From: Nitrospirota bacterium
GTDB lineage: Bacteria; Nitrospirota; Nitrospiria; Nitrospirales; UBA8639
Direction: 5' to 3'
Assembly: GCA_029879555.1 (NCBI GenBank)
Contig: JAOUQB010000030.1
Span: 1-13,647 of the forward strand
DNA: 13,647 nt
In this document: piece after piece, positions 2,314-13,647 of the stretch
Numbering within the stretch: the first letter of the stretch is position 1
How the letters are laid out: each line of letters starts with the position of its first letter
The notes under the pieces: generated by a model
Database searches by the model: none
What the model was told of the DNA's origin: nothing
Seen by the model: only the letters and a program-made list of their open reading frames with translations
Position numbers and translations under genes: made by a program

Positions 2314-2369
2314 ACAATCAACCACTCCAACCTTTCAACACCACTCCCTGGGAATTTTTTCCTGGGTAG

Positions 2370-2412
2370 CTAGGGAAATTCCTAGTTACGATTTTCTCAC
2401 GAATACCATATA
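2370..2412 (+). promoter_or_regulatory. Shared operator plus -10 element (site A), upstream of the nucleotidyltransferase gene
   Basis: CTAGGGAAATTCCTAG (2370-2385) followed by TT, exactly 19 nt, then CATATA (2407-2412). The same arrangement, with identical spacing, occurs at three other places in this window. A start point near 2419 would put the palindrome centre at about -41.5, the position of class II activators overlapping -35. Just upstream, CCTGGG occurs twice (2361-2366 and near 2347), perhaps as extra half-sites. The binding protein is inferred, not known. Confidence 0.6.
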
Positions 2413-2472
2413 CCGTCTGTTTATGAGCGCTCATCCCCCCTTTGATATCTGATCTAGGGAAAGGAACAGTGT

Positions 2473-3453
2473 ATGATGAAACCCTCTCAATCCAAAAGCG
2501 TGTGGTCCGTTATTCTTGCGGGAGGTGAAGGAGAACGAACGCGTCCCTTTATTCAACAATGGTTGGGGTGTTCTCAACCAAAACAATATTGTACGTTTGT
2601 CGGAAATCGATCCATGCTTCAACACACGTTAGACCGAGCCGATCGAGTGGGTATGCCGCATCACAAAGTCACCGTGATCGCGGAGCACCATCAGCCCTAT
2701 GCCCGCGAGACTTTCAATGAAAACCACCAGGGACACGTGGTGATTCAGCCTCAGAATTGCGGTACCGCTGCCGGAATTTTCCTTCCCCTCACCTATGTGC
2801 GGGCCAAAGATCCCAAGGCCACAGTGGTGATTTACCCCTCAGATCATTTTGTGTTTCCTGAAGATCGATTTGCAGAGACCGTTCGCCGAGCCACACGTGC
2901 CATTGATGTCCTTCAAGATCGCATCCTCCTCCTAGGTGTGCGTCCGACCCATCTGGAATTAGACTATGGGTGGATGAACGTCGGTGCTATCCTGGGAAGG
3001 CAGGGCAATTCCTGCCTTCGACAAGTCCAGTCATTTATGGAAAAACCTAGCCCACTCGAAGCCTTACAAGCCATGTCGAATGGCGGGCTGTGGAATACCT
3101 TAGTGATGGTGGCGAAAATCGAGACGCTGTGGTCCTTGGGATGGCAATGCCTCCCGGCTATCATGGAACGGTTTGAACGATTCGAAAAAACCATTGGTAC
3201 CGTTCAAGAAAGTCAAACGCTTTATCAGTTGTATCAAGACATGCCTCGTATGAATTTCTCGTCCGACCTCCTCCAACACGTGCCCGAACGCCTCGGCGTC
3301 ATTGAATTGGAAGAGGTACTCTGGAGCGATTGGGGAAGGCCCGAACGGATAAAAGAGACGTTGGACATTTTGGGGAAAAAGCCGGCATTCCCTTCGGAAA
3401 TACTGACAACCCCAGCTGTCGTTACCACTTCATCTTTGGAGGTGATGTCATGA
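2473..3453 (+). CDS. Mannose-1-phosphate guanylyltransferase-like nucleotidyltransferase
   Basis: Predicted cytoplasmic sugar-phosphate nucleotidyltransferase, most likely making GDP-mannose from GTP and mannose-1-phosphate for exopolysaccharide or LPS. Seen: the nucleotide-binding loop LAGGEGERTRPF (15-26), PKQYC (36-40, as in ManC PKQ), NCGTAAGIFLP (95-105), the metal-binding YPSDHF (121-126), FMEKP (188-192), GGLWNT (204-209, for the usual GxxWNxG) and WSDWGRPERI (294-303). At 326 residues it has the catalytic domain only and no C-terminal isomerase domain of bifunctional ManC. Start ATG 2473 has AAAGGA upstream. It overlaps the next gene by four bases (ATGA). Expression is probably controlled by site A. 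The loop has RTRPF where most family members have RLxPL, so substrate specificity is not certain. Confidence 0.8.
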   Translation: MMKPSQSKSVWSVILAGGEGERTRPFIQQWLGCSQPKQYCTFVGNRSMLQHTLDRADRVGMPHHKVTVIAEHHQPYARETFNENHQGHVVIQPQNCGTAAGIFLPLTYVRAKDPKATVVIYPSDHFVFPEDRFAETVRRATRAIDVLQDRILLLGVRPTHLELDYGWMNVGAILGRQGNSCLRQVQSFMEKPSPLEALQAMSNGGLWNTLVMVAKIETLWSLGWQCLPAIMERFERFEKTIGTVQESQTLYQLYQDMPRMNFSSDLLQHVPERLGVIELEEVLWSDWGRPERIKETLDILGKKPAFPSEILTTPAVVTTSSLEVMS

Positions 3454-3779
3454 GAGAATCTGTTGCATCGGCCCACGATCAGAAAGAACCAAAGCGCCAA
3501 GCTCCCGTAGGCCGCCAGGACAAGATGGTCTTAAACAAAAAGGAAAACAACAAGTCAACTAAAAAAGCCGGTCGGCCAAAAATGCCAAAAGCCCCAAGTA
3601 TGACCATCTCAGATCCGGTGTGGCGGGATAACCTGTCGACAAACGACACCGTGGATCCACGCATTGCAGAACGAGCCTATGAATTGTGGCAGCACCGAGG
3701 AGGTCATCACGGGCAGGATCTGGAGGATTGGCTGGCCGCTGAACGCGAGGTACTGTCCGAAGAAGAATGCTCTTCTTGA
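3450..3779 (+). CDS. DUF2934 family protein, 109 residues
   Basis: The C-terminal part, RIAERAYELWQHRGGHHGQD followed by LEDWLAAEREVL (about 71-102), is the signature of DUF2934 (PF11154), a small domain of unknown function. The N-terminal 65 residues are lysine-rich and probably disordered, with a GRP core in KKAGRPKMPK (38-47) that resembles an AT-hook, which could suggest DNA contact (inference). The frame is open from further upstream, but ATG 3450 is chosen because it is preceded by GGAGGTGA with good spacing and overlaps the TGA of the nucleotidyltransferase gene (ATGA), so the two are translationally coupled. No signal peptide or membrane segment. Confidence 0.75.
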   Translation: MRESVASAHDQKEPKRQAPVGRQDKMVLNKKENNKSTKKAGRPKMPKAPSMTISDPVWRDNLSTNDTVDPRIAERAYELWQHRGGHHGQDLEDWLAAEREVLSEEECSS

Positions 3780-3851
3780 TGGAAGAGAAACTCACCTTTC
3801 AACTTCCTCTTTCCTCCTCATGTGAGATCTAGCAGCGATTCATCTTCTTAT

Positions 3852-3959
3852 CGTCATCCCTGCCATCACAGAGTTTGCCCCCCTGCAAACATGGGCAGGA
3901 ACGAGAAGTCATTGGACAAGCTAGAATAGATTCCCGATTAAAAATGTCGGGAATGACAG
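3852..3959. repeat. REP-like repeat (R2)
   Basis: Begins GTCATCCCTGCC and ends with the hairpin ATTCCCGATTAAAAATGTCGGGAAT followed by GACAG. The middle, TTTGCCCCCCTGCAAACATGGGCAGG, corresponds to TTGCCCCTGCGGCTATTGGCAGG of the copy at 5010-5164. It lies between the convergent DUF2934 gene and the CxxC pseudogene, so it may also end transcription from both sides. Confidence 0.6.
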
Positions 3960-4023
3960 AGGAAGGCCCGGAAATTCAGGTTGGGAAAATGCTGAAAGGG
4001 GAGGACGAAAAGATGCTGAAACT

Positions 4024-4238
4024 CTAAAATAATGAATGAGGGAGTCCTGCCCCTACCCCCAAAACTTTTATGGGATCGGGGATCACGGCACCGCATTCCC
4101 GACACACCAGATTTCCAGATGGTTTAGCTTTTTCATTGTAATGATAATCTACCTTCGCTGATGCACCAAACCCTTCGCCTTTGTCGGTGTGGATGTGCCG
4201 TTCATTCCATTGACGCGTCCGGCCTTGTTTGCATTCAT
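4024..4238 (-). pseudogene. Frameshifted paralogue of the small CxxC protein (copy 1)
   Basis: Starts ATG AAT GCA at 4238 and reads MNANKAGRVNGMNGTSTPTK..., parallel to the intact copy at 5296-5481 (MNADKTGRVNKINGTSTRTK). Near 4152-4160 one base is missing relative to the intact copy (GCGAAGGTAGATT against GCGTATGATGGATT), giving a premature TAG in frame. After the shift the homologous sequence resumes: YHYNEKAKPSGNLVCRECG, then AVIPDP, and runs to a stop at 4024-4026. It lies 13 bp downstream of the receiver gene at 4252-4758, as expected of the second gene of that operon. A sequencing error is the alternative to a true loss. Confidence 0.7.
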
Positions 4239-4251
4239 AGATATGCTTTCT

Positions 4252-4758
4252 TCAAGATTCTTCCCCAATTAAAGAAGTGCCTTCCACGTCTTGATTTGCA
4301 AAAATCGTCGTGCACACATTTCGGAGAAAAGATAGGGAAAACGGCTTACTCATAAAACCTTGCGCACCTTCCCTTTGGGACAGGTCCGGCTTCTTCACCC
4401 CACCGGACATCATCACTACCGGTATCGGATTCCCCAACCACCGTAACTCATCCAGCATCGTCAGTCCATCCATCACCGGCATATCCATATCCAGCAGAAT
4501 GCCATCGACCTTGTGTATGGCTAAGACATCCAAGCCTTCACGCCCATTTTTCGCCAGAAACACATCAAAACCCCAGAGGTCAAGGGCGTCGTGGAGCATC
4601 TCTAATACCGACGGATCATCATCCACAACAAGTATGGTGGGTAACAGTGTTTTCATCACCACATCGTTCAACTGCCGTTGCGGATTACTCTTAAGCGTCA
4701 AATCATCCGCATAGCCTCGCGGAATGGGCCGCTTGAAAATTGAAGACAGCTGAATCAT
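4252..4758 (-). CDS. CheY-like receiver-only response regulator (copy 1)
   Basis: A single receiver (REC) domain with no output domain, 168 residues. After about 38 residues of leader comes TILVVDDDPSVLEML with the acidic pocket at 46-48, the phosphoacceptor Asp90 in GILLDMDMPVMDG, the Ser of MMSGG (118) and the conserved Lys138 in SKPF. It should take phosphate from a histidine kinase and signal by protein contact; partner unknown, though the five-PAS kinase nearby is a candidate. The ATG at 4758 has AAGGAGG seven bases upstream. It is followed 13 bp later by the CxxC pseudogene and preceded by shared operator B. Clearly paralogous to the receiver at 5545-6081 (same DELRWLG, KPFSL and DGILLDM segments), part of a duplicated module. 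Confidence 0.88.
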   Translation of the reverse strand: MIQLSSIFKRPIPRGYADDLTLKSNPQRQLNDVVMKTLLPTILVVDDDPSVLEMLHDALDLWGFDVFLAKNGREGLDVLAIHKVDGILLDMDMPVMDGLTMLDELRWLGNPIPVVMMSGGVKKPDLSQREGAQGFMSKPFSLSFLRNVCTTIFANQDVEGTSLIGEES

Positions 4759-4832
4759 GTGTCGCCTCCTTGCTGAATCCCTTGCATCAATTCAAAATTT
4801 GATTGATGGATGAAGGGGGAGCATGCCCCTAG

Positions 4833-4875
4833 AATATGAAATTGTGAGCAATAGGTGAACTAGAGAAATCCCTAG
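4833..4875 (-). promoter_or_regulatory. Shared operator plus -10 element (site B), upstream of receiver copy 1
   Basis: Read on the minus strand: CTAGGGATTTCTCTAG (4875-4860), TT, exactly 19 nt, then CATATT (4838-4833). Same geometry as sites A, C and D. The start codon is 74 bp further on. A CTAGGGG half-site directly follows the -10 element. Confidence 0.6.
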
Positions 4876-4898
4876 TTTTTTCTTAAAAAGCTCCTCAG

Positions 4899-4997
4899 TC
4901 AGGAAGATGCGGCAACAGGGAGGGAAGCGGGTTCAACCAGACAACGTGAAAGAGACCACCTGGCGAAATAGGCATTCCCGGAGGTTGTGGGGGAGAT
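4899..4997 (-). pseudogene. 3' remnant of a NarL/LuxR-type response regulator gene
   Basis: The last 25 codons read GNAYFARWSLSRCLVEPASLPVAASS and align without gaps to the end of the regulator at 6219-6887 (SNADLTKFALSHGLVEPASS...), in the same frame and ending at almost the same place. The shared GGTTCAACCAG block is identical in DNA. Homology fades at about 4997, and the REP-like repeat starts at 5010, so the 5' part of the gene has been lost at or near that repeat. It sits just upstream of operator B, as the intact regulator does relative to operator C. Confidence 0.65.
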
Positions 4998-5009
4998 CCC
5001 TTCTATTTT

Positions 5010-5164
5010 GTCATCCCCGCGGTTAGTGAGCTTGCCCCTGCGGCTATTGGCAGGGGCGGGGATCCATCTGAAGAAAATGGCCCTGGATTCCCGCCTCCGT
5101 GCCTGCGCGTCGAACCGCTTCATTGCGTAGACATGGGAATGTCAAAAATGGACGGGAATGACAG
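5010..5164. repeat. REP-like repeat (R3)
   Basis: GTCATCCCCGCGGTTAG..., an inner inverted pair GCCCCTGC/GCAGGGGC (TTGCCCCTGCGGC and TTGGCAGGGGCGG), then GATCCATC, CTGGATTCCCGCCTCCG and a GGGAATGACAG end. Closely matches the reverse complement of the repeat at 7875-7976 over about 90 bp. An extra segment near 5100-5135 (GTGCCTGCGCGTCGAACCGC) lengthens this copy. It abuts the truncated regulator remnant. Confidence 0.7.
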
Positions 5165-5295
5165 AGAGCGGCGAGAATGAAAGAACATAGTGGGAGAAGA
5201 TCAAAAAGAGACAGAGCGAGAATGGAAAAGAGAAAAAGAAAAATGTTCTGGAATTGTCAAATATTTTGTTGACTCGCGACCCTATCCTAGAAATT
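5165..5295. other. Purine-rich intergenic stretch
   Basis: The plus strand from about 5180 to 5255 is strikingly purine-rich (AAAAAGAGACAGAGCGAG type). It lies downstream of the intact CxxC gene and upstream of repeat R3. I see no gene, RNA or terminator hairpin in it. Confidence 0.4.
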
Positions 5296-5481
5296 TTACA
5301 GGAGAATTTTCACCGGATCAGGAATCACGGCGCCGCACTCCCGACACACCACATTTCCAGTGGATTGACCTTTTTCATTGTAATGAGAATCCATCATACG
5401 CTGATGCACACAACCATTCGCCTTTGTCCGTGTAGATGTTCCGTTTATTTTATTGACGCGTCCGGTCTTATCCGCATTCAT
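5296..5481 (-). CDS. Small CxxC (zinc-ribbon-like) protein, 61 residues (intact copy 2)
   Basis: Small basic, hydrophilic protein: MNADKTGRVNKINGTSTRTK, a central VHQRMMDSHYNEKGQSTGN and a C-terminal VCRECGAVIPDP with one CxxC pair (Cys44 and Cys47, counting from this start). The single CxxC-GAV knuckle resembles half of a zinc ribbon, so it may bind metal as a dimer or with the nearby histidines (inference); I cannot name the family with certainty. The frame is open up to 5532, but ATG 5481 is chosen because AAGGAG lies eight bases upstream and because the same ATG-AAT is the start of the paralogous copy at 4024-4238. It follows the receiver gene 5545-6081 by about 63 bp and is probably co-transcribed from promoter C. 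Confidence 0.65.
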   Translation of the reverse strand: MNADKTGRVNKINGTSTRTKANGCVHQRMMDSHYNEKGQSTGNVVCRECGAVIPDPVKILL

Positions 5482-5544
5482 AGACATTGCTCCTTCAACG
5501 TTTATTGTTACCTCGTGGTGAACCATTTCCATCCCCCCGGTTAT

Positions 5545-6081
5545 TTACCCACCGTTGTTGGGGCTCGCGAACGAAGCCACAGCCGAATGAGCATCTGAAT
5601 GGGCATCATGTGCAGGACGATGAAAGACCCTGGCGCAAATTTTTCGGAGAGAGGGCAGCGAAAACGGCTTAATCGCAAAGGCTTGTGCGCCTTCCTTCAC
5701 AATTCGTCGGAGAGTCGAGACATCCTCACCGGACATGACCACAACGGGTGTCTGATACCCTAACCACCGCAACTCATCCAACATCGTCTGTCCGCCCATC
5801 ACAGGCATGTTCATATCAAGCAAAATGCCATCGACTTTTTGTTTGCGTAAGGCATCCAAACCTTCTTGCCCATTTGACGCCAGAACCACGTCATAGCCCC
5901 AGTTGGTGAGGGCATCCCTGAGCATCTCGGCAACAGACGGATCATCATCCACAATAAGGATAGTAGGTGACAGCGCCCTGACTGCTGAATTATCAGGAGA
6001 CCAGCGTTTTGTTCCCCTTTCTGGCTTCAGGAGATGGTTTAAAGACGTCGCCCCTTTGGAAGATGAAGATCGATGACTCAT
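5545..6081 (-). CDS. CheY-like receiver-only response regulator (copy 2)
   Basis: A single REC domain of 178 residues with a 38-residue Ser/Lys-rich leader. Acidic pocket in ILIVDDDPSV (45-47), phosphoacceptor Asp89 in GILLDMNMPVMGG, Ser117 in MSGED, Lys138 in IKPF. The tail after residue 152 is histidine-rich (HRPAHDAHSDAHS) and absent from copy 1. The frame is open to 6225, but the ATG at 6081 has GGAGGGAGG just upstream, and promoter C lies inside the longer frame, so the short start is right. It is followed by the intact CxxC gene. There is no output domain, so it would act by protein contact or in a phosphorelay with the kinase further along the strand (inference). Confidence 0.88.
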   Translation of the reverse strand: MSHRSSSSKGATSLNHLLKPERGTKRWSPDNSAVRALSPTILIVDDDPSVAEMLRDALTNWGYDVVLASNGQEGLDALRKQKVDGILLDMNMPVMGGQTMLDELRWLGYQTPVVVMSGEDVSTLRRIVKEGAQAFAIKPFSLPSLRKICARVFHRPAHDAHSDAHSAVASFASPNNGG

Positions 6082-6151
6082 GATTGCCTCCCTCCTGCAT
6101 ACCCTTGAATTAATCAATTGATTACCTAACTTCCTTGGGAGAATGCTTGAG

Positions 6152-6194
6152 GGTACGAAACAAGGAGGAGAAAGATAACTAGGAAAATCCCTAG
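6152..6194 (-). promoter_or_regulatory. Shared operator plus -10 element (site C), upstream of receiver copy 2
   Basis: Read on the minus strand: CTAGGGATTTTCCTAG (6194-6179), TT, exactly 19 nt, then CGTACC (6157-6152), a weaker -10-like hexamer. The start codon at 6081 is 70 bp downstream. The palindrome is one base different from site B in the left half and spacer. Confidence 0.6.
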
Positions 6195-6218
6195 TTTTTG
6201 CTAAAAACCCCAGCTCAA

Positions 6219-6887
6219 TCAGCAAGAAGATTCAATCGGGGATGAGGCTGGTTCAACCAGCCCATGGGACAGGGCAAACTTGGTCAGATCGGCATTCGAC
6301 TGGAGGTGTAATGTTTCAAGAAGTTTGGTTTTATGAAAGTCAACGGTTTTCACGGAAAGGTCAAGGATCACGGCAATTTCCTTCATGGACTTCCCCTCGA
6401 CAATCAGCTGCAACACTTCTCTCTGGCGAGGAGTCAGGTGCTTGAGCATGGACACCTGGTTTCGGGACCCAAATTCTAGCGGTATCTGGTCATCGAGAAA
6501 CACCAACGGGGTGAGATACGTTCGCCCTTGAATCACCGTATGAATGGCCTCCACCAGTTCGGAAGCCGCACTGCGCTTGAGCAGATAGCCGGAGGCCCCT
6601 GCCTGGAAGGCCTCTTTTGCATAGGCGACATCCGCATGCATGGTGAGAAAGATGACTTTCGAGCCAACCAATCGCTTGAGCTGCCGGCATGCTTCAAGAC
6701 CATGCAACAAGGGCATCGTCATATCAGTCACAATGACATCTGGGGTCAGCTCCTGGGCCGCAGCCACCAGAGCACGACCATCTTCCACTTTTCCCACAAC
6801 ATCGAATTCCTCGTCCAAGATTTTCTTCACCCCTTCTAACACCATCGGGTGATCATCGGCTAACAAGATACGAATGCGGTTCATCAT
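6219..6887 (-). CDS. NarL/FixJ-type response regulator (REC + LuxR HTH), first of two
   Basis: Transcription factor of 222 residues. REC domain at about 4-120: acidic pair Asp11-Asp12, phosphoacceptor Asp55 (VIVTDMTMP), Thr82 (FLTMHAD), Lys104 (YLLKRSA). LuxR-type HTH at about 148-212: LTPRQREVLQLIVEGKSMKE, then the recognition-helix region SVKTVDFHKTKLLETL. All catalytic residues are present, so it should be phosphorylated and bind DNA as a dimer. The ATG at 6887 (or the adjacent second ATG) has a modest AAAGG upstream. It is driven by operator site D and may bind these sites itself (inference). Receiver copy 2 starts 137 bp downstream with its own promoter. A truncated sister copy is at 4899-4997. 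Confidence 0.92.
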   Translation of the reverse strand: MMNRIRILLADDHPMVLEGVKKILDEEFDVVGKVEDGRALVAAAQELTPDVIVTDMTMPLLHGLEACRQLKRLVGSKVIFLTMHADVAYAKEAFQAGASGYLLKRSAASELVEAIHTVIQGRTYLTPLVFLDDQIPLEFGSRNQVSMLKHLTPRQREVLQLIVEGKSMKEIAVILDLSVKTVDFHKTKLLETLHLQSNADLTKFALSHGLVEPASSPIESSC

Positions 6888-6969
6888 AAGCCGTTGCCTT
6901 TAATCGAAGATGAGGAGGGGGTCATGAACGCGTCAGCCAAACCAATCATTCGTCAAACTTGGGATCAAG

Positions 6970-7012
6970 GATACAGAATTCAAAACTGCCACTAAACTGG
7001 GGAAAACCCTAG
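6970..7012 (-). promoter_or_regulatory. Shared operator plus -10 element (site D), upstream of the first NarL-type gene
   Basis: Read on the minus strand: CTAGGGTTTTCCCCAG (7012-6997), TT, exactly 19 nt, then TGTATC (6975-6970). One arm is CCAG instead of CTAG. A further CCTAGGGAGC block lies about 20 bp upstream (around 7027-7036), a possible second site. The start codon is about 82 bp downstream. Confidence 0.55.
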
Positions 7013-7173
7013 TCGAAGAAGAAAAGCTCCCTAGGATGGGGCTTCCTTAGAATTATTCTGCCTTCGTCTTACCGGCAGGTTCCCGTTGTGCCACGGCAGG
7101 TCCTATCTCTGACATCCCTGACAGTTCTGGCAGAGAGCATTTTTCCTCTAACTTCTTCGGCTCGAAATCACCA

Positions 7174-7818
7174 TCATTCCGAAGAAACGATACCATGGGC
7201 AACCGCGTATTTGGTCAACTCGACCGTCGAATGCAAATTCAACTCCCGCATAATCTTCGTCTTATGAAACTCCACCGTCTTGCTCGAAACATTGAGAATG
7301 TTCGCAATATCCTTTACCGCCTTGCCCTCTGCCACGAGCTGCAACACTTCTCGCTGGCGCGGCGTCAAGGAATGTTTGTTCTCTGGGGCCCGCTCCAATC
7401 CGCCACAAAGGGGCAATAAGACCTCCTTTGCAATAACGGGCGTCACATAGAATTGATCTTTCAAGACGGCGTGAATGGCCAATATCAATTCCGTGGCAGC
7501 AGACCGTTTGAGCAGGTAGCCTGAAGCGCCAACCTGAAAGGCCTTTTTTGCATAGGTGGGATCAGCATGCATGGTCAGAAAAATAATCTTACAAGCCGGC
7601 AACAGTTTATGGAGTTGGCGAGCGGCATCCAGGCCATTGAGTTGTGGCATAGAAATATCCAACACGACGACATCAGGATTGTGCTCCTGCACCATAGTCA
7701 GAAGTGTTCGCCCATCTTCGGCCATACCAACGACATCGCACTCGTCCTCAAGGATCTTATACAATCCTTCCAGAACGAGCGTATGGTCATCAGCTAAAAC
7801 AATACGCGGACGTTTCAT
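7174..7818 (-). CDS. NarL/FixJ-type response regulator (REC + LuxR HTH), second of two, probable partner of the five-PAS kinase
   Basis: 214 residues. REC domain at about 4-120 with Asp10-Asp11, phosphoacceptor Asp54 (VVVLDISMP), Thr82 (FLTMHAD) and Lys104 (YLLKRSA). LuxR-type HTH at about 150-212: LTPRQREVLQLVAEGKAVKD and SSKTVEFHKTKIMREL. About half identical by eye to the regulator at 6219-6887, so an older duplication. The frame continues upstream to a GTG at 7845, but ATG 7818 (MKRPRIVLADDH) fits the normal family start, with GGGAAAA before it. It lies about 200 bp downstream of the kinase gene, on the same strand, with a REP-like repeat between them, and no shared operator precedes it; co-transcription with the kinase is likely. 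Confidence 0.9.
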   Translation of the reverse strand: MKRPRIVLADDHTLVLEGLYKILEDECDVVGMAEDGRTLLTMVQEHNPDVVVLDISMPQLNGLDAARQLHKLLPACKIIFLTMHADPTYAKKAFQVGASGYLLKRSAATELILAIHAVLKDQFYVTPVIAKEVLLPLCGGLERAPENKHSLTPRQREVLQLVAEGKAVKDIANILNVSSKTVEFHKTKIMRELNLHSTVELTKYAVAHGIVSSE

Positions 7819-7874: not shown

Positions 7875-7976
7875 GTCATTTCCGCGGAGGCGGGAATCCA
7901 GGCTCTCTTCTCCTCGGATGGATCCCCGCCCCTGCCAACAACCGCAGGGGCAAGCTCTACACCCGCGGGGATGACA
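7875..7976. repeat. REP-like repeat (R4), inverted relative to R3
   Basis: Begins GTCATTTCCGCGGAGGCGGG and ends ACCCGCGGGGATGAC. Its reverse complement closely follows repeat R3: GAGCTTGCCCCTGCGG, TTGGCAGGGGCGGGGATCC and CCTGGATTCCCGCCTCCG are shared. It separates the kinase gene from its presumed response regulator and could attenuate or stabilise that transcript. Confidence 0.7.
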
Positions 7977-8017: not shown

Positions 8018-8638
8018 TCACTTCTCCCTTTTCACTTCCATCGTTGGCACCCAGACAATGATTTCCGTGCCTTGGCCTGGGGCAGACCTCAGATTATAGG
8101 TGCCTTGAACCGCGCGAACGCGTTCTTGCATGCTGATCAACCCTAATCCATGTTTTCCGCCTAGCATCGTCTCAACCGTAAACCCCTTTCCATTATCTGA
8201 AATGGACAATGTCAGGGCGTCATCTTTTCCGATTAGTTTCACGTCGACCTGAGTCGCTTGAGCATGCTTCGTCACATTCCTCAAACATTCTTGGGTCACG
8301 CGATAGAGACAGGACGCGATCTCCTGAGCTACGGAAAAAGGAACATCGGTTGCGACAAAAGAAACGGGAATGCCTTCCCATTTTGAAAAATCACTGATAA
8401 AGGCCTGCAAGGCCACTTCGAGGCCGAGATCATCTAATATAGAGGGATGGAGTTGGTAGGCAAGGCGCCGAACATCATCTGAAAGCAAAGAGACCGCATC
8501 ATAAAGTTTCTGCAAGGCTTGGTACGTCGGCGTTGATTGGCCCAATTCTTTTTGCACAGATTGAATAGTCAACGCCAACACGGCCAGTCGTTGGTTCATG
8601 TCATCATGGAGTTCCCGTGAGATTCTCACGCCGTTCAT
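8018..8638 (-). CDS. Histidine kinase transmitter part (HisKA_3 + HATPase_c), severed from the PAS part by a frameshift
   Basis: Carries the NarX-type dimerisation and phosphoacceptor helix RISRELHDDMNQRLA, where the His of the H-box is residue 11 of this frame, and the ATP-binding domain: N-box QECLRNVTKHAQA (116-128), G1 box DNGKGF (148-153), G2 box GLGLISMQERV (164-174), ending GTEIIVWVP. In this kinase class the H-box is normally preceded by AQEDERRR, and that sequence is found in the other frame at the end of the PAS protein (8604-10835). Removing one base near 8627-8628 joins them as DERR-RISRELHDD. As the sequence stands, this part could be made only by reinitiation at ATG 8638 or a nearby codon, and no good ribosome-binding site is present. 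Probable target: the regulator at 7174-7818. Confidence 0.8.
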   Translation of the reverse strand: MNGVRISRELHDDMNQRLAVLALTIQSVQKELGQSTPTYQALQKLYDAVSLLSDDVRRLAYQLHPSILDDLGLEVALQAFISDFSKWEGIPVSFVATDVPFSVAQEIASCLYRVTQECLRNVTKHAQATQVDVKLIGKDDALTLSISDNGKGFTVETMLGGKHGLGLISMQERVRAVQGTYNLRSAPGQGTEIIVWVPTMEVKREK

Positions 8639-10835
8639 CCTCTTGAGCGGTAATCAATTGTCCGCCAAGGGCTTGGAGCGCCTCATGGCTGTGTTGGAGT
8701 TCTCCTTCTCTGACTCGAAGGGCTTCTTCCACTTCCTTTCGCGCTGTAATGTCAAGGGCCACTCCCCCGAGTTGCACTTCTCCCCTCCTCCGGTGAACCA
8801 GAAATTTCATGACCCACCAGTAACGGACCTTTCCTGTTTCATCCAACGTCGTTTCCTCGGCTTCCAATACCTCCCTCGTTTTCAGAACTTCCTGATCATG
8901 TTCTTTGAATATTCGAGCCACTTCGGGGGGAAAGAGTTGCAAGTCCGTCTTCCCCAAACAATTTGCCTGTGAAAGATGTAATTTTTTTTCAAATTGTCGG
9001 TTCACATACACATACTGGCCCTTCTCATTTTTCAGAAACTTCACAGCCGGACTATGATTCATAAAAGCTTGAAACCGCTCTTCACTCTCTCGAAGAGCAT
9101 CTTCAGCCTTTTTCCGAGCTGTAATGTCTGCAAAGGTGACAACCACCCCTTCAACCTGATGATGAATATTCTTGATTGGTGAGCACGTATAGGCTACGGG
9201 AAAGCTCGTGCCGTCTTTACGCCATAAGATTTCTGTATCCACATGATGATAACTGCCGTTTGTTGCCGAGAAATACACCGGACACTCATCCCAGGGATAA
9301 GGAGTTCCATCCTTCCGTGTATGATGCAAGTGCGAATGGATGGCTCGACCTTCCACATCTTGGAAATTCCACCCAGTTAACACTTCAGCTGCACGATTAA
9401 AAAATGTCGTGTGGCCTTGATGGTCAATTCCGTATATCCCCTCCCCGGCAGAATCAAGGATCAACCTGTTCTGCGTTGCCAAACGTTGGCTGGCAAGTTC
9501 GGCCTGCTTTCGACGTGTGATATCAATCCCTGTGGCAATAATATTCTCTACTTCTCCCTGTTGGTCTTTTATGACCGTGTTGGACCAACTGATCCAGCGC
9601 ACCTGGCGATCGCGATCGAGCCATGCGTTTTCAAAGAAGGTTGGGAATTGTTTCCCTTGAAAGGAGGACAGAAGGCTCTTGACCTCTGGGGCATCTTCTC
9701 CGGAAACCACAGTTAGATCGAGAAAGGATTTTCCCTTCATCTCATCAATGGTTCGCCCGGTCACACGTTCACACACTTGATTGAACCGAACAATTCGCCA
9801 TTTGGGATCAAGGACCACAACCAGAGCCGCAGTGGCATCTAAAATGGTGGCCGTGAACTGTTGCTCTTTGGCCAGGGCTTCCTCCACCTTTCGACGCTCG
9901 GTGATGTCACGCAGAATAACCGTTAGTCGCTTTTGTCCTGCAAAATCGAACTGAGAGATCGAAGCCTCCACCGAGAATTCTTCTCCATCGAAACGCCGGG
10001 CAACCACATTCCCCAGCCGGCCCCCAGAACGAACCCTCTCTCCTGATTGCATAAATGCTTGGACATGGGCTTGATGGATTGGTCGAAATTGTTGGGGGAT
10101 GAACGGGTCAATCGACTTCCCGATGGCTTCAGAGGGAGGACACCGAAACATTTCCTCAGCCCCTTTATTGAACAGAACGACCCGCTCCTGCTCATCTATC
10201 GTGATAATGGCATCCATCGCCGTATCGAGCACATCGCTTAACCAGGCTTCTTGCTCCTTTTGCAACGCTTTTGCCAGCTCCTGCTCGGTGAGATCAAGCA
10301 ACGCCACGCGGATATTTAGTTCAGCATGGACACCGTCTTGGTCTTCAAAGAGACTTTGCAACCGAACAAGAAAGTGCTCGTGATTATGAGTGAGTCGCAG
10401 TATCCCGGAAACCTCCTTCAAGTTTCTCTGTACCAAATTCTGGAGATGAAGACGGAGCGTGGATTGATCGGCAGCTATCACAAAAGCTTCCAGCTTTTGG
10501 TGAATCAAATCCTTACGCTCCACCTGGAGAAGCTGACATGCCGTGAGGTTGGCTTCCAGGATTTCTCCACTGGTATTCAGGGTGAGAAACCCCACAGGCG
10601 CGAAGTCATAGAGATCGGCATAGCGATCACGAGCGTATTGGAGCTCCAGCTGCGTGCGGCGGAGCTCTTCATTTTGTATCTCCAATTCGATTTGGTGTAC
10701 TTGCAATTCATGCACAAAATGCTGAATCTCCGCCATGGACATCTTCTTCACCTGCATAGACGTCGTTTTGAGCGACTCTTCCGCCTTGCCCCGGAGCGCT
10801 TGGAAATCTGATAAAGGTTTCTTCTTTGGACTCAT
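8604..10835 (-). CDS. Five-PAS sensor kinase, sensory part; frame ends in the H-box by a one-base shift
   Basis: 743 residues with no membrane segment, so a cytoplasmic sensor. An N-terminal coiled coil (about 33-70, HELQVHQIELEIQNEELRRT) is followed by five PAS domains at about 72-185, 201-312, 328-441, 457-573 and 587-700; four of them end in the PAC-type DIT motif (RDITERRK, GIDITRRK, FADITARK, ALDITARK). A second coiled coil leads into QLITAQEDERR at 726-736, the normal entry to a HisKA_3 domain, and then the frame runs out as ENLTGTP-stop. The missing transmitter domain is in the adjacent frame at 8018-8638. The ATG at 10835 has only a weak AGGTAG upstream. An insertion sequence ends about 70 bp upstream and may have displaced the native promoter. 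Ligands cannot be inferred. Confidence 0.88.
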   Translation of the reverse strand: MSPKKKPLSDFQALRGKAEESLKTTSMQVKKMSMAEIQHFVHELQVHQIELEIQNEELRRTQLELQYARDRYADLYDFAPVGFLTLNTSGEILEANLTACQLLQVERKDLIHQKLEAFVIAADQSTLRLHLQNLVQRNLKEVSGILRLTHNHEHFLVRLQSLFEDQDGVHAELNIRVALLDLTEQELAKALQKEQEAWLSDVLDTAMDAIITIDEQERVVLFNKGAEEMFRCPPSEAIGKSIDPFIPQQFRPIHQAHVQAFMQSGERVRSGGRLGNVVARRFDGEEFSVEASISQFDFAGQKRLTVILRDITERRKVEEALAKEQQFTATILDATAALVVVLDPKWRIVRFNQVCERVTGRTIDEMKGKSFLDLTVVSGEDAPEVKSLLSSFQGKQFPTFFENAWLDRDRQVRWISWSNTVIKDQQGEVENIIATGIDITRRKQAELASQRLATQNRLILDSAGEGIYGIDHQGHTTFFNRAAEVLTGWNFQDVEGRAIHSHLHHTRKDGTPYPWDECPVYFSATNGSYHHVDTEILWRKDGTSFPVAYTCSPIKNIHHQVEGVVVTFADITARKKAEDALRESEERFQAFMNHSPAVKFLKNEKGQYVYVNRQFEKKLHLSQANCLGKTDLQLFPPEVARIFKEHDQEVLKTREVLEAEETTLDETGKVRYWWVMKFLVHRRRGEVQLGGVALDITARKEVEEALRVREGELQHSHEALQALGGQLITAQEDERRENLTGTP

Positions 10836-11157: not shown

Positions 11158-12089
11158 TTATGCGGCACGACAGACCTGGGTTGCGTCATACTCCTGAGCA
11201 CGGGACAGTACGGCGAAGGCCACGCGGGCATTCTTATTGGCCAAGGCCACCACGGCTTTATTCATCCCTCGGCGTTCGACCAAGCGGCGAACCCATCGGC
11301 TGGCCGGATCCTGCTTCTCGCGGCTATGCGTGATCACCGATCATGCCCCATGTAATGAGTAAGCTGCGGAGATAACGATCCCCCTGTTTACTCATCCCCC
11401 CTAGCCGGACTTTGCCGCCCGTGCCAGCATGCTTAGGGACCAGACCCAGAGCGGCGGCCACATGGCAACCATGCTGATACGCCTGCCCGGCCAGCTTCAC
11501 CCAGAGGGCGGACGCCGACAGGGGCCCAATCCGCTAACTCGGCCTCCTGCTCTGCCAGGAGCTGCCGCAACAAGGGCGTCCCGCGTTCGTCGGCCAAAAA
11601 GGTAGCGAGGACCTTCCTAAGGGCCGCGCGCCCTCGAGGCACCGCCACCCCATATTCGAGGAGCAGCCCATGCAGCTGGTTCACCAGAGCCGTCCGCTGG
11701 CGGAGCACACGACTACGCACGCGATGTAACGCTTGCACGTCTTGCTGCGCTTCCGTCGCGATCCCCACAACACGCATCCCCGGTTCTTGCACGGCCCGAC
11801 AGATCGCGCGGGCATCGGCCGCATCACTCTTATTGGTCTGCACCCACGGCTTCACATACTGCGGGGCGATGAGCCGTCCCTCGTGCCCCAACTTCGTGAG
11901 CTCCCGCGCCCAGTAATGCGCGCCGCCACAGGCTTCCATCCCCACCAGCGCTGGCGGATGATTGGCCAACCACGGCAGCATCTTCTTGCGCGCGAGCCGC
12001 TTCCGTTCCACGCCCTGAGTGGCCCCGTCTTCCACGTATATCTCAAACACCTGTTTGGCAATGTCGATCCCGATTGTTGTACGCGGCAT
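11158..12089 (-). pseudogene. IS110/IS1111-family transposase, inactivated by deletion and frameshifts
   Basis: The ATG at 12089 follows AAAGGAGGAG. The RuvC-like DEDD domain is intact: Asp9 (GIDIAK), Glu52 (GMEACGGAHYW), Asp89 and Asp92 (KSDAADAR). After LLAEQEAELAD (about 11530) the sequence jumps out of frame to GPLSASALWVKLAGQAYQHG, so the linker and the start of the transposase_20 domain (roughly 30 codons) are missing. The second frame continues HVAAALGLVPKHAGTGGKVR and MSKQGDRYLRSLLI, then breaks again at about 11335-11355. The third frame gives ITHSREKQDPASRWVRRLVE, ALANKNARVAFAVLS and ends QVCRAA-stop at 11158. At least two frame breaks and a deletion make it non-functional as read. 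Confidence 0.88.
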
Positions 12090-12162
12090 GATGACTCCTC
12101 CTTTTAGTTGAACGCTGGTGGGTGATCCTCCAGCTTGGTACACTTGATGCCGTCCTAAAAAA

Positions 12163-12171: not shown

Positions 12172-12217
12172 CACCATTATGCCCGACATCGCATATTGGA
12201 TATCTCTACCCTCCGCC

Positions 12218-12247
12218 GTCATGCCCGACATTTTTTATCGGGCATCC
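12218..12247. repeat. REP-like palindrome (R5), with a second, interrupted unit beside the IS
   Basis: GTCATGCCCGACATTTTTTATCGGGCATCC: arms ATGCCCGA and TCGGGCAT around a T-rich loop. The same hairpin type closes repeat R2 (ATTCCCGATT/...GTCGGGAAT). A second GCCCGACAT starts at 12181, directly at the IS end, and looks like the other half of a unit split by the IS. It lies 35 bp beyond the argF stop and could also serve as that operon's terminator. Confidence 0.65.
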
Positions 12248-12281
12248 ATCTTCAGATTCTTGCTGACGGTGCATCCGTTTG

Positions 12282-13220
12282 TTATTGAGAAATCTTTGCA
12301 CCAAGCAGTTTGACCAGAATGGCTTTTTCAATGTGAAGTCGATTTTCGGCCTGGTCAAAGACGACACTCTGCGACCCATCGATGACTTCGGCTGTTTGTT
12401 CATTGCCCCTCTGGGCTGGCAGACAATGCATGAAGATCGCATTGGGACTGGCCTGTTGCATGAGGGCCTCCGTCACGCGAAAGGGTTCAAGCATGTGAAA
12501 CCGTTTTTCGTGTTCTTCTTCGGGGATGTGGTAACTCATCCATGTATCCGTATACACCACGTCCGCATTGGCCACAGCCGATTGGGCATCATATACAATG
12601 GCAATGCTTCCCCCACTTTCTTGGGCAAAAGATTCAGCCTGCGCAAGAACTTCCGGTAATGGCTGATAGGCCGGGTCTGCCGGACAACCAACCGTCATCT
12701 GCATACCCATTTTTGAGCAGGCATGGAGAAGAGAATGGGTCACATTGTTATTCCCCTCACCCACATAGGCCAGGCGAAGGCCCTGAAGCGCTCCCTTGCG
12801 TTCTTGTATGGTGAGCAAATCGCCCAGGGCCTGACAGGGATGTTCATGGTCAGTCAATCCGTTAATGACGGGCACCCTGGCATAACGCCCAAGCTCTTCC
12901 ATATCGGCCCGTCGAAACATTCTAGCCATGATGCCCTGGACATAACGCGACGCCGTACGAGCGGTATCCGCAATCGTTTCCTTGCCTGATCCCAGCGGTG
13001 ACATTCCCAGATCGTAGTAAATACTGTGGCCGCCCATTTGCAACATAGCTGATTCAAATGAAACCCTGGTACGTAGCGATGGTTTTTCAAAAATCATTAA
13101 TAGTATGGAACCAGCTAACGCATGGTTATAGTGCTCAGGATGTTGTTTGATGTGGACGGCGGACGCAATGATCCCTTCCAGATTTTCTCGGGTCCAGTCA
13201 ATTAACGAAATCAGATTCAT
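12282..13220 (-). CDS. argF: Ornithine carbamoyltransferase
   Basis: Condenses ornithine and carbamoyl phosphate to citrulline (reversible), in the cytoplasm. 312 residues, normal length. Carbamoyl-phosphate loop FEKPSLRTRVSFE (44-56), MARMFRRADMEEL, HPCQALGDLLTI (the HPxQ motif), the Asp/Asn face VGEGNNNVTHS (153-163) and the ornithine-side HCLPAQRGNE near the C terminus are all present. Two departures from the textbook enzyme: SLRTR for STRTR (known in some lineages, e.g. Thermus-type enzymes, from memory) and TDTWMSYHIPEEEH where most have DxWxSMGQE. Start ATG 13220 has AAGGAG nine bases upstream. The carbamate kinase gene ends 14 bp upstream on the same strand, so the two form an operon; alone this does not say whether the enzyme works in synthesis or catabolism. 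Confidence 0.93.
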   Translation of the reverse strand: MNLISLIDWTRENLEGIIASAVHIKQHPEHYNHALAGSILLMIFEKPSLRTRVSFESAMLQMGGHSIYYDLGMSPLGSGKETIADTARTASRYVQGIMARMFRRADMEELGRYARVPVINGLTDHEHPCQALGDLLTIQERKGALQGLRLAYVGEGNNNVTHSLLHACSKMGMQMTVGCPADPAYQPLPEVLAQAESFAQESGGSIAIVYDAQSAVANADVVYTDTWMSYHIPEEEHEKRFHMLEPFRVTEALMQQASPNAIFMHCLPAQRGNEQTAEVIDGSQSVVFDQAENRLHIEKAILVKLLGAKISQ

Positions 13221-13234
13221 TCAACGCGTCTCCT

Positions 13235-13647
13235 TCAATCAGGAACCATATGAGTGCCAGTCCGGCCTTCAAATCCATCAAGCGCCTTTTCCGTGCTTGT
13301 GATGATAAACTCACATCCGCCATGCTCTAGAAAATAAATCCCGGCCTCGATTTTCGGTTGCATACTCCCCGAGCCGAAGTGACCTTCCGCCAAATACGTC
13401 TTCGCGTCAGCGACCGTGATCGTCTGCAGGTTTTCTTCAGAGGGGGAATTGAAATGGAGCTTGGCATGTTCCACTGACGTCAAATCCAAGATGCGCGCGA
13501 CCCCAATCGCCACGGCCAACTGACTGGAGGCCAGATCTTTATCCACGACCGCCTCAACGCCTTGCCAAATCTCGTCGGTTTCAGCACTGACGGGAATTCC
13601 ACCGCCACCCACGGCAATAACAATGACCCCATCATCAAACAGACGCT
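13235..13647 (-). CDS. arcC: Carbamate kinase, C-terminal part, cut by window edge
   Basis: Interconverts carbamoyl phosphate plus ADP with carbamate plus ATP. The 136 visible residues start before the window edge with the glycine-rich VIVIAVGGGGIPV, then GVEAVVDKDLASSQLAV (the conserved DKD), LHFNSPSEENLQTITVADAK, HFGSGSMQPKIEA (the GSMxPK motif) and FIITSTEKALDGFEGRTGTH, all typical of the C-terminal half of the roughly 310-residue family. The frame is open to the right edge, so the gene extends out of the window. It precedes argF by 14 bp. The pair allows ATP recovery from citrulline, or carbamoyl phosphate supply, depending on genes outside the window such as arginine deiminase. Confidence 0.92.
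   Translation of the reverse strand, partial: RLFDDGVIVIAVGGGGIPVSAETDEIWQGVEAVVDKDLASSQLAVAIGVARILDLTSVEHAKLHFNSPSEENLQTITVADAKTYLAEGHFGSGSMQPKIEAGIYFLEHGGCEFIITSTEKALDGFEGRTGTHMVPD

Follow-up and report, generated by a model that had tools for sequence, protein, structure and literature searches.

The acetate-utilisation response regulator CrbR of Pseudomonas, a LuxR-type protein, depends on an inverted repeat that occupies -52 to -36, immediately upstream of an RpoD promoter (PMC5715377). In Bacillus subtilis, the NarL-family dimer ComA recognises a hexamer inverted repeat with an optimal spacer of four bases, together with an extra degenerate element that is needed for activity (PMC4797271). 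Here we describe a related arrangement in a Nitrospirota bacterium: four copies of an inverted repeat, CTAGGG-N4-CCCTAG in its ideal form, each coupled to a candidate promoter, in contig JAOUQB010000030.1 (assembly GCA_029879555.1). The whole contig of 13,647 bases was analysed and is called the window below. The four sites lie before genes for a nucleotidyltransferase (NTP), two receiver-only proteins (REC1 and REC2), and a NarL/LuxR-type response regulator (RRa); a paralogous regulator (RRb) and a multi-PAS histidine kinase are encoded alongside. Judged from sequence comparison, the operator-promoter is a genuine, conserved element of a NarL-type two-component system in Nitrospirales; elements of this sort are known already, and this one is new.

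The window is one of 605 contigs in a draft assembly of 3,219,086 bases (~92% complete), and the closest named relatives of the source genome are metagenome-assembled genomes labelled Nitrospirales, Nitrospirota, Nitrospiria, or Nitrospira. Nitrospirales include hard-to-culture nitrite oxidisers, and the literature matches listed include no described response-regulator site for this order. The element provides a precise, testable operator-promoter for a Nitrospirales two-component system; its maintained geometry gives predicted transcription starts that can be checked in community RNA data, and a 72-bp model of it picks up further candidate members in relatives.

Comparison with described systems

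Our comparisons draw on portions of the cited papers. The CrbR/ACTU system resembles the present one in having a LuxR-family response regulator, an imperfect inverted repeat before a promoter, and a small regulon; however, the arms of CrbR's acs site, TACTACCATCGTCGAAT, are unlike those of the window sites, the CrbR kinase is of the SLC5/STAC type, and the portion of the report drawn on makes no mention of a half-site 22 bp upstream like the one found here (PMC5715377). No solute-symporter domain appears among the Pfam matches of the two parts of the window kinase. The ComA box has the same layout of hexamer, four-base spacer, and hexamer, with an extra element, as the window sites; its arms are of the TTGCGG type, and its extra element is a downstream direct repeat, whereas here an upstream half-site is found (PMC4797271).

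NreC is likewise a response regulator of a two-component system. The staphylococcal NreC site may be TAGGG-N4-CCCTA, which would match the core of the present sites; this likeness serves as a lead only, and a search with four strings of that form found no paper in the collection searched. An earlier reading of the window from its letters alone (hereafter the sequence-only reading) had known of no described regulator with this site, a statement that may be too strong given the possible likeness to NreC. NreC-P binds a GC-rich palindromic region, and its system differs from ours in the kinase, NreB with an Fe-S cluster, and in its targets nar, nir, and narT (PMC8139620). The window instead has a multi-PAS kinase, the genes behind its sites are RRa, REC1, REC2, and NTP, and no NreB-type kinase is found by Pfam, the Fe-S motif itself not having been searched for. 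The best NCBIfam match of both regulators is the MctR-type model NF052445 (162.2 bits for RRa and 178.5 bits for RRb); assignment of either as an MctR equivalog is rejected, both scores being under the curated cut-off of 300 bits. The RpuR/MctR operator is described, in the portion of the report drawn on, as a direct repeat (PMC9100948). Taken by their comparative features—a receiver joined to a GerE domain, an inverted-repeat operator at a fixed distance from the -10 element, and co-occurrence of the two—the predicted sites and regulators fit a NarL/FixJ (LuxR-type) regulon.

Four sites in the window and the genome

Site A (2370..2387, plus strand) precedes NTP, site B (4858..4875, minus strand) precedes REC1, site C (6177..6194, minus strand) precedes REC2, and site D (6995..7012, minus strand) lies between RRb and RRa, before RRa; each interval covers the palindrome and the TT that follows it. 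The sequence-only reading had described them accurately, as CTAGGG, four bases, a second arm, TT, 19 nt, and a YRTAYM hexamer, starting at 2370 on the plus strand (A) and at 4875 (B), 6194 (C), and 7012 (D) on the minus strand. Its consensus arm (T/C)CC(T/C)AG misses site B by one base (arm CTCTAG), and YYCYAG fits all four; the pattern it suggested for checking, CTAGGG-N4-YCYAGTT, is one base short and has 0 matches. Each site is one mismatch away from CTAGGG-N4-CCCTAG.

The corrected pattern, CTAGGG-N4-YYCYAG-TT, has exactly four matches in the 3,219,086-base assembly, all on this 13.6-kb contig, and did not occur when the window was simulated 400 times with a first-order model. Allowing up to three mismatches raises the number of matches in the window to 15, eight of which are A to D counted on each strand, where 3.9 would be expected; of 200 shuffles, the highest gave 11.

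Sites B and C lie within a tandem duplication (4063-4888 and 5305-6207, minus strand) that comprises REC1, REC2, their promoters, and trailing DNA, with 72-83% identity in pieces. They are therefore not independent, and we count three independent origins. A repeat search with a minimum of 24 nt linked neither A nor D to any other site.

Promoter geometry

The position of the -10 element was read from 32 sites in relatives—palindromes with at most one mismatch, oriented by the orthologous downstream gene only, the window sites being excluded. A TAYNNN hexamer stands 21 nt after the TT in 21 of these 32 sites (next best offset, 5), and TA-N3-T at the same offset in 14 (next best 6, one base earlier). 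The comparison thus places the predicted conserved -10 element, TAY-N3 and often TA-N3-T, two bases later than had been proposed. The YRTAYM hexamer 19 nt after the TT holds in all four window sites and fails in relatives, where it is found in 1 of 32 sites (its best offset, 18 nt, gives 4 of 32); as a conserved -10 element it is rejected, being a property of the window only.

All four window promoters have TA at the revised -10 position. With the register taken from the 42-site alignment described below and the 32-site count, the -10 hexamer of A is TATACC (2409..2414, plus strand; predicted start ~2420-2422), that of B TATTCT (4831..4836, minus strand; ~4823-4825), that of C TACCCT (6150..6155, minus strand; ~6142-6144), and that of D TATCCT (6968..6973, minus strand; ~6960-6962). 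Setting the -10 hexamer at -12 to -7 puts the palindrome at -51 to -36. The sequence-only reading had placed the palindrome at ~-41.5, as for a class II activator; the idea of a shared operator-promoter at about such a distance stands, but because the -10 element lies two bases later the centre moves to ~-43.5. The TT coincides with positions 1 and 2 of a -35 hexamer separated from the -10 element by 17 bp, and the remaining -35 bases are poor, the hexamers adjoining the four palindromes being TTACGA, TTCACC, TTATCT, and TTTAGT.

The earlier reading also overlooked an upstream half-site. CTAGGG, with at least five of six bases matching, occurs exactly 22 bp upstream in 22 of the 32 relatives' sites; no other offset between 7 and 64 has it in more than 1 of 32. 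In the window it is intact at D (CTAGGG, 6/6; 7029..7034, minus strand) and partial at A (CTGGGA, 4/6; 2348..2353, plus strand).

Conservation in relatives

The gene order kinase, RRb, site, RRa, site, receiver gene, and further along a site before NTP recurs in relatives, some of which lack some of the sites; relatives' sites precede orthologues of RRa, the receiver gene, and the nucleotidyltransferase. Site D is kept at the same position and site A has its counterpart before NTP orthologues, which upholds the earlier claims that RRa, the NarL-type gene, and the mannose-1-phosphate guanylyltransferase-like gene each have a site in front. The proposed search of the genome and its relatives, made with the corrected motif, gave four matches in the source genome and sites before orthologues of the same genes elsewhere; of 48 family genomes, 23 contain the exact pattern.

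Alignment of 48 sites in a fixed register (palindromes from the relatives' loci, one mismatch being allowed; L071:7306 was left out for unclear orientation and L106:10844 was also left out) shows what is kept: AA-CTAGGG-ATTT-CCCTAG-TT, an upstream CTAGGGA-N-TTTT with its T-tract, and a downstream TA(T) at the place of the -10 element. Twelve of these 48 sites were oriented by the downstream reading frame and partly by fit to the half-site and -10 element, which flatters those rows. A 42-row alignment further left out L065 (twice), L070, L075:5022, and L090:658 for poor or uncertain fit, and L080:10787 as a near copy. By this comparison the element is a conserved, putative promoter architecture of Nitrospirales.

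Co-occurrence of site and regulator

A relative of RRb or RRa (E<=1e-60) is present in 22 of the 48 family genomes, and exact sites occur in 19 of these 22 versus 4 of the 26 genomes without one (Fisher p 1.3e-6). Counted as strand matches, the regulator-bearing genomes hold 47 at 43 places (reversed pattern, 13) and the others 4 (reversed pattern, 7). In the source genome, RRa and RRb are the sole matches to RRb at E<=1e-40 (63 candidates scored).

Across 235 genomes of the order, a slightly relaxed pattern gave 117 strand matches (113 places, 80 genomes) in group f3, which corresponds to Nitrospiraceae by the label of L102's genome; four of the 117, as of the 47 above, merely repeat a place on its other strand. 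An RRb-family gene lies no more than 500 bp away from at least 28 of the 117, against ~0.2 expected on the assumption of four such genes per 3.8 Mb. In L190, L194, and L196 the kinase frame runs into that of RRb, the site lies downstream, and a CTAGT half-site stands 22 bp upstream of it. Elsewhere, in a freshwater-type Nitrospira genome, a 91-aa frame without Pfam match follows a site (L195:2779-3054) and is a candidate target.

The regulators of a 51-row tree include RRa as a supported group of 16 rows (99/94), and RRb branches without resolution; of the 63 regulator rows the tree omits 12, ten without and two with a nearby palindrome. The most likely binder of the site, judged by this distribution, is the RRb/RRa family, and adjacency in relatives supports the earlier suggestion that one of the LuxR-type regulators encoded in the window is the likely binder.

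Extent of the regulon

Applied to the source genome, the 72-bp model finds only four strong sites, A to D (E 2e-11 to 5e-9); the four are in its training set, and what is telling is that no others appear. It gives eight matches at E<=1; those listed comprise A to D and, for three of these, the antisense reading as well. Neither this model nor a search allowing two mismatches (81 matches versus 191 for the reversed control) yields anything convincing in the source genome beyond the four sites, and the regulon looks small and mainly local on these predictions.

In relatives, sense-strand model matches at E<=1e-5 number four in G029, four in G030, five in G037, five in G044, and two in G047; those outside the training set are G029:C1:459173, G030:C1:3062349, and G037:C41:17880. 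Extra sites in relatives precede a capsule-type gene (PGA_cap) and a gene whose product is weakly PAS-like, scoring below the Pfam cut-off, and less certain ones, left out of the alignment for poor fit, precede a CBS protein and a cytochrome c gene; the PGA_cap, weakly PAS-like, and less certain CBS cases are those of L060:8484-9473, L092, L063/L082/L087, and L090:63-497. The regulon may therefore differ between species.

Proposed mechanism and alternatives

Site geometry, conservation, co-occurrence with the regulators, and gene order together are the grounds on which we regard it as probable that the four elements are activator-dependent promoters through which the adjacent two-component system controls one small set of genes. 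The PAS-type histidine kinase, as the presumed cognate, would phosphorylate RRb; an RRb dimer, possibly also its paralogue RRa, would then bind AA-CTAGGG-N4-CCCTAG-TT, a site whose centre lies ~43.5 bp before the start and whose end abuts the -35 hexamer. The half-site 22 bp upstream, two helical turns away and kept in most relatives' sites, would place a second protomer or dimer on the same face of the DNA. Once bound, the regulator would recruit RNA polymerase to promoters whose -10 element is fair and whose -35 element is poor, and would so raise expression of RRa, REC1, REC2, NTP, and the DUF2934 gene.

Several observations weigh against this account. Sites B and C match the half-site poorly (3/6 and 1/6); a perfect palindrome at L070:7794, 122 bp before a kinase gene (G017), has neither half-site nor -10 element; and the window kinase changes frame at 8600-8640 (minus strand), separating its PAS part from its HisKA_3/ATPase part. 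The genomes are kin, so that the p-values overstate independence. Three of the 22 regulator-bearing family genomes have no exact match, though G033 and G034 have model matches, and two of the 22, G019 and G022, carry regulators that are only 50-53% identical. In Nitrospiraceae the reversed control reaches 46 (hand count) against 117, and many of the matches away from RRb genes may be due to chance; in a second Nitrospira regulator clade, a weak palindrome (at most two mismatches within 600 bp) is found near 5 of 17 genes. As to the binder, the Nitrospiraceae site accompanies an RRb-like protein, and in G015 the single close regulator is RRa-like and has a palindrome on either side, given which RRa and RRb are indistinguishable in this role. 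The helix region [KR]T[VI][EDQ]FH[KR] occurs also in several regulators without a nearby site, and thus does not single out the binder.

The same protein could act as a repressor, the palindrome abutting the -35 region and blocking polymerase. The operator does touch that region, and RRa sits behind its own candidate site; yet the adjoining -35 hexamers are poor, as in activator-dependent promoters, the operator ends before reaching the -10 element, the phased upstream half-site fits an activator, and CrbR activates from the same position (PMC5715377, in the portion drawn on). We therefore think repression unlikely. A different, genome-wide transcription factor that binds CTAGGG-N4-CCCTAG and merely counts the regulators among its targets would explain why some relatives' sites stand before PGA_cap, CBS, weakly PAS-like, and cytochrome c genes, and why many Nitrospiraceae matches lie away from RRb genes. 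Such a factor is improbable to a still greater degree: the source genome has only four exact sites, all beside the regulators, the family sites track RRb/RRa (19/22 versus 4/26), and among the Nitrospiraceae matches, which are only ~2.5-fold over their reversed control, at least 28 of 117 adjoin RRb-family genes.

That the palindromes are a dispersed repeat, a terminator, or the end of a mobile element seems very improbable. Dispersed intergenic repeats do occur in the window, and a duplication does contain B and C, but the repeat search joined neither A nor D to another site, the register with half-site and -10 element is maintained across species, and the genome holds just four exact copies. 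Returning to activation by RRb, a further and more speculative step is a self-limiting, receiver-rich circuit. Three of the four window promoters precede genes for receiver proteins (RRa, REC1, and REC2), so RRb activation would raise competing phospho-acceptors; RRa might share the RRb site alone or as a heterodimer, the receiver-only proteins might be phosphate sinks or adaptors that reset the kinase, and the sugar-nucleotide gene might be the metabolic output. We hold this extension to be possible and doubtful.

Genes and other features of the window

The genes of the minus strand encode the multi-PAS histidine kinase, RRb, RRa, REC2, and REC1; those of the plus strand are a SpoIIAA-like gene, NTP, and a DUF2934 gene. 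RRb (7174..7818, minus strand), the proposed binder, and RRa (6219..6887, minus strand), a possible second binder behind site D, are NarL/LuxR-type response regulators in both of which the receiver (PF00072) and the GerE helix-turn-helix (PF00196) exceed the gathering score; the RRb gene adjoins a site in relatives. The sensor kinase, with several PAS domains and HisKA_3/HATPase domains by Pfam, spans 8018..10835 (minus strand) in two frames of the assembly (8604-10835 and 8018-8638). Its halves are contiguous in L066, L074, L080, and L099, and the split may be an assembly error or real.

REC1 (4252..4758, minus strand; behind site B) and REC2 (5545..6081, minus strand; behind site C) match PF00072 alone, and the receiver D/D/S/K residues are present in REC1. 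At the place equivalent to REC2, L074 has a CBS-receiver fusion. Behind the REC2 copy comes a reading frame of 78 aa that contains a CxxC motif (5296-5532, minus strand); a small frame of similar kind, also with CxxC, follows the receiver gene of L067. NTP (2473..3453, plus strand), behind site A, is a mannose-1-phosphate guanylyltransferase-like nucleotidyltransferase by Pfam PF00483; its best NCBIfam match, TIGR01479, scores 90 bits, under the cut-off of 373. The DUF2934 gene (3450..3779, plus strand; PF11154) overlaps NTP and is probably co-transcribed with it.

Further along the minus strand, the frame 11433-12143 is presumably an IS110-type transposase, the frame 12282-13220 presumably an ornithine carbamoyltransferase, and the frame 13235-13645 presumably the last part of a carbamate kinase. 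Two pairs of dispersed, inverted intergenic repeats are present: 5009-5077 with 7908-7976 (69 nt, 87%), one copy of which lies between the kinase and RRb genes, and 3926-3966 with 12209-12249 (41 nt, 83%).

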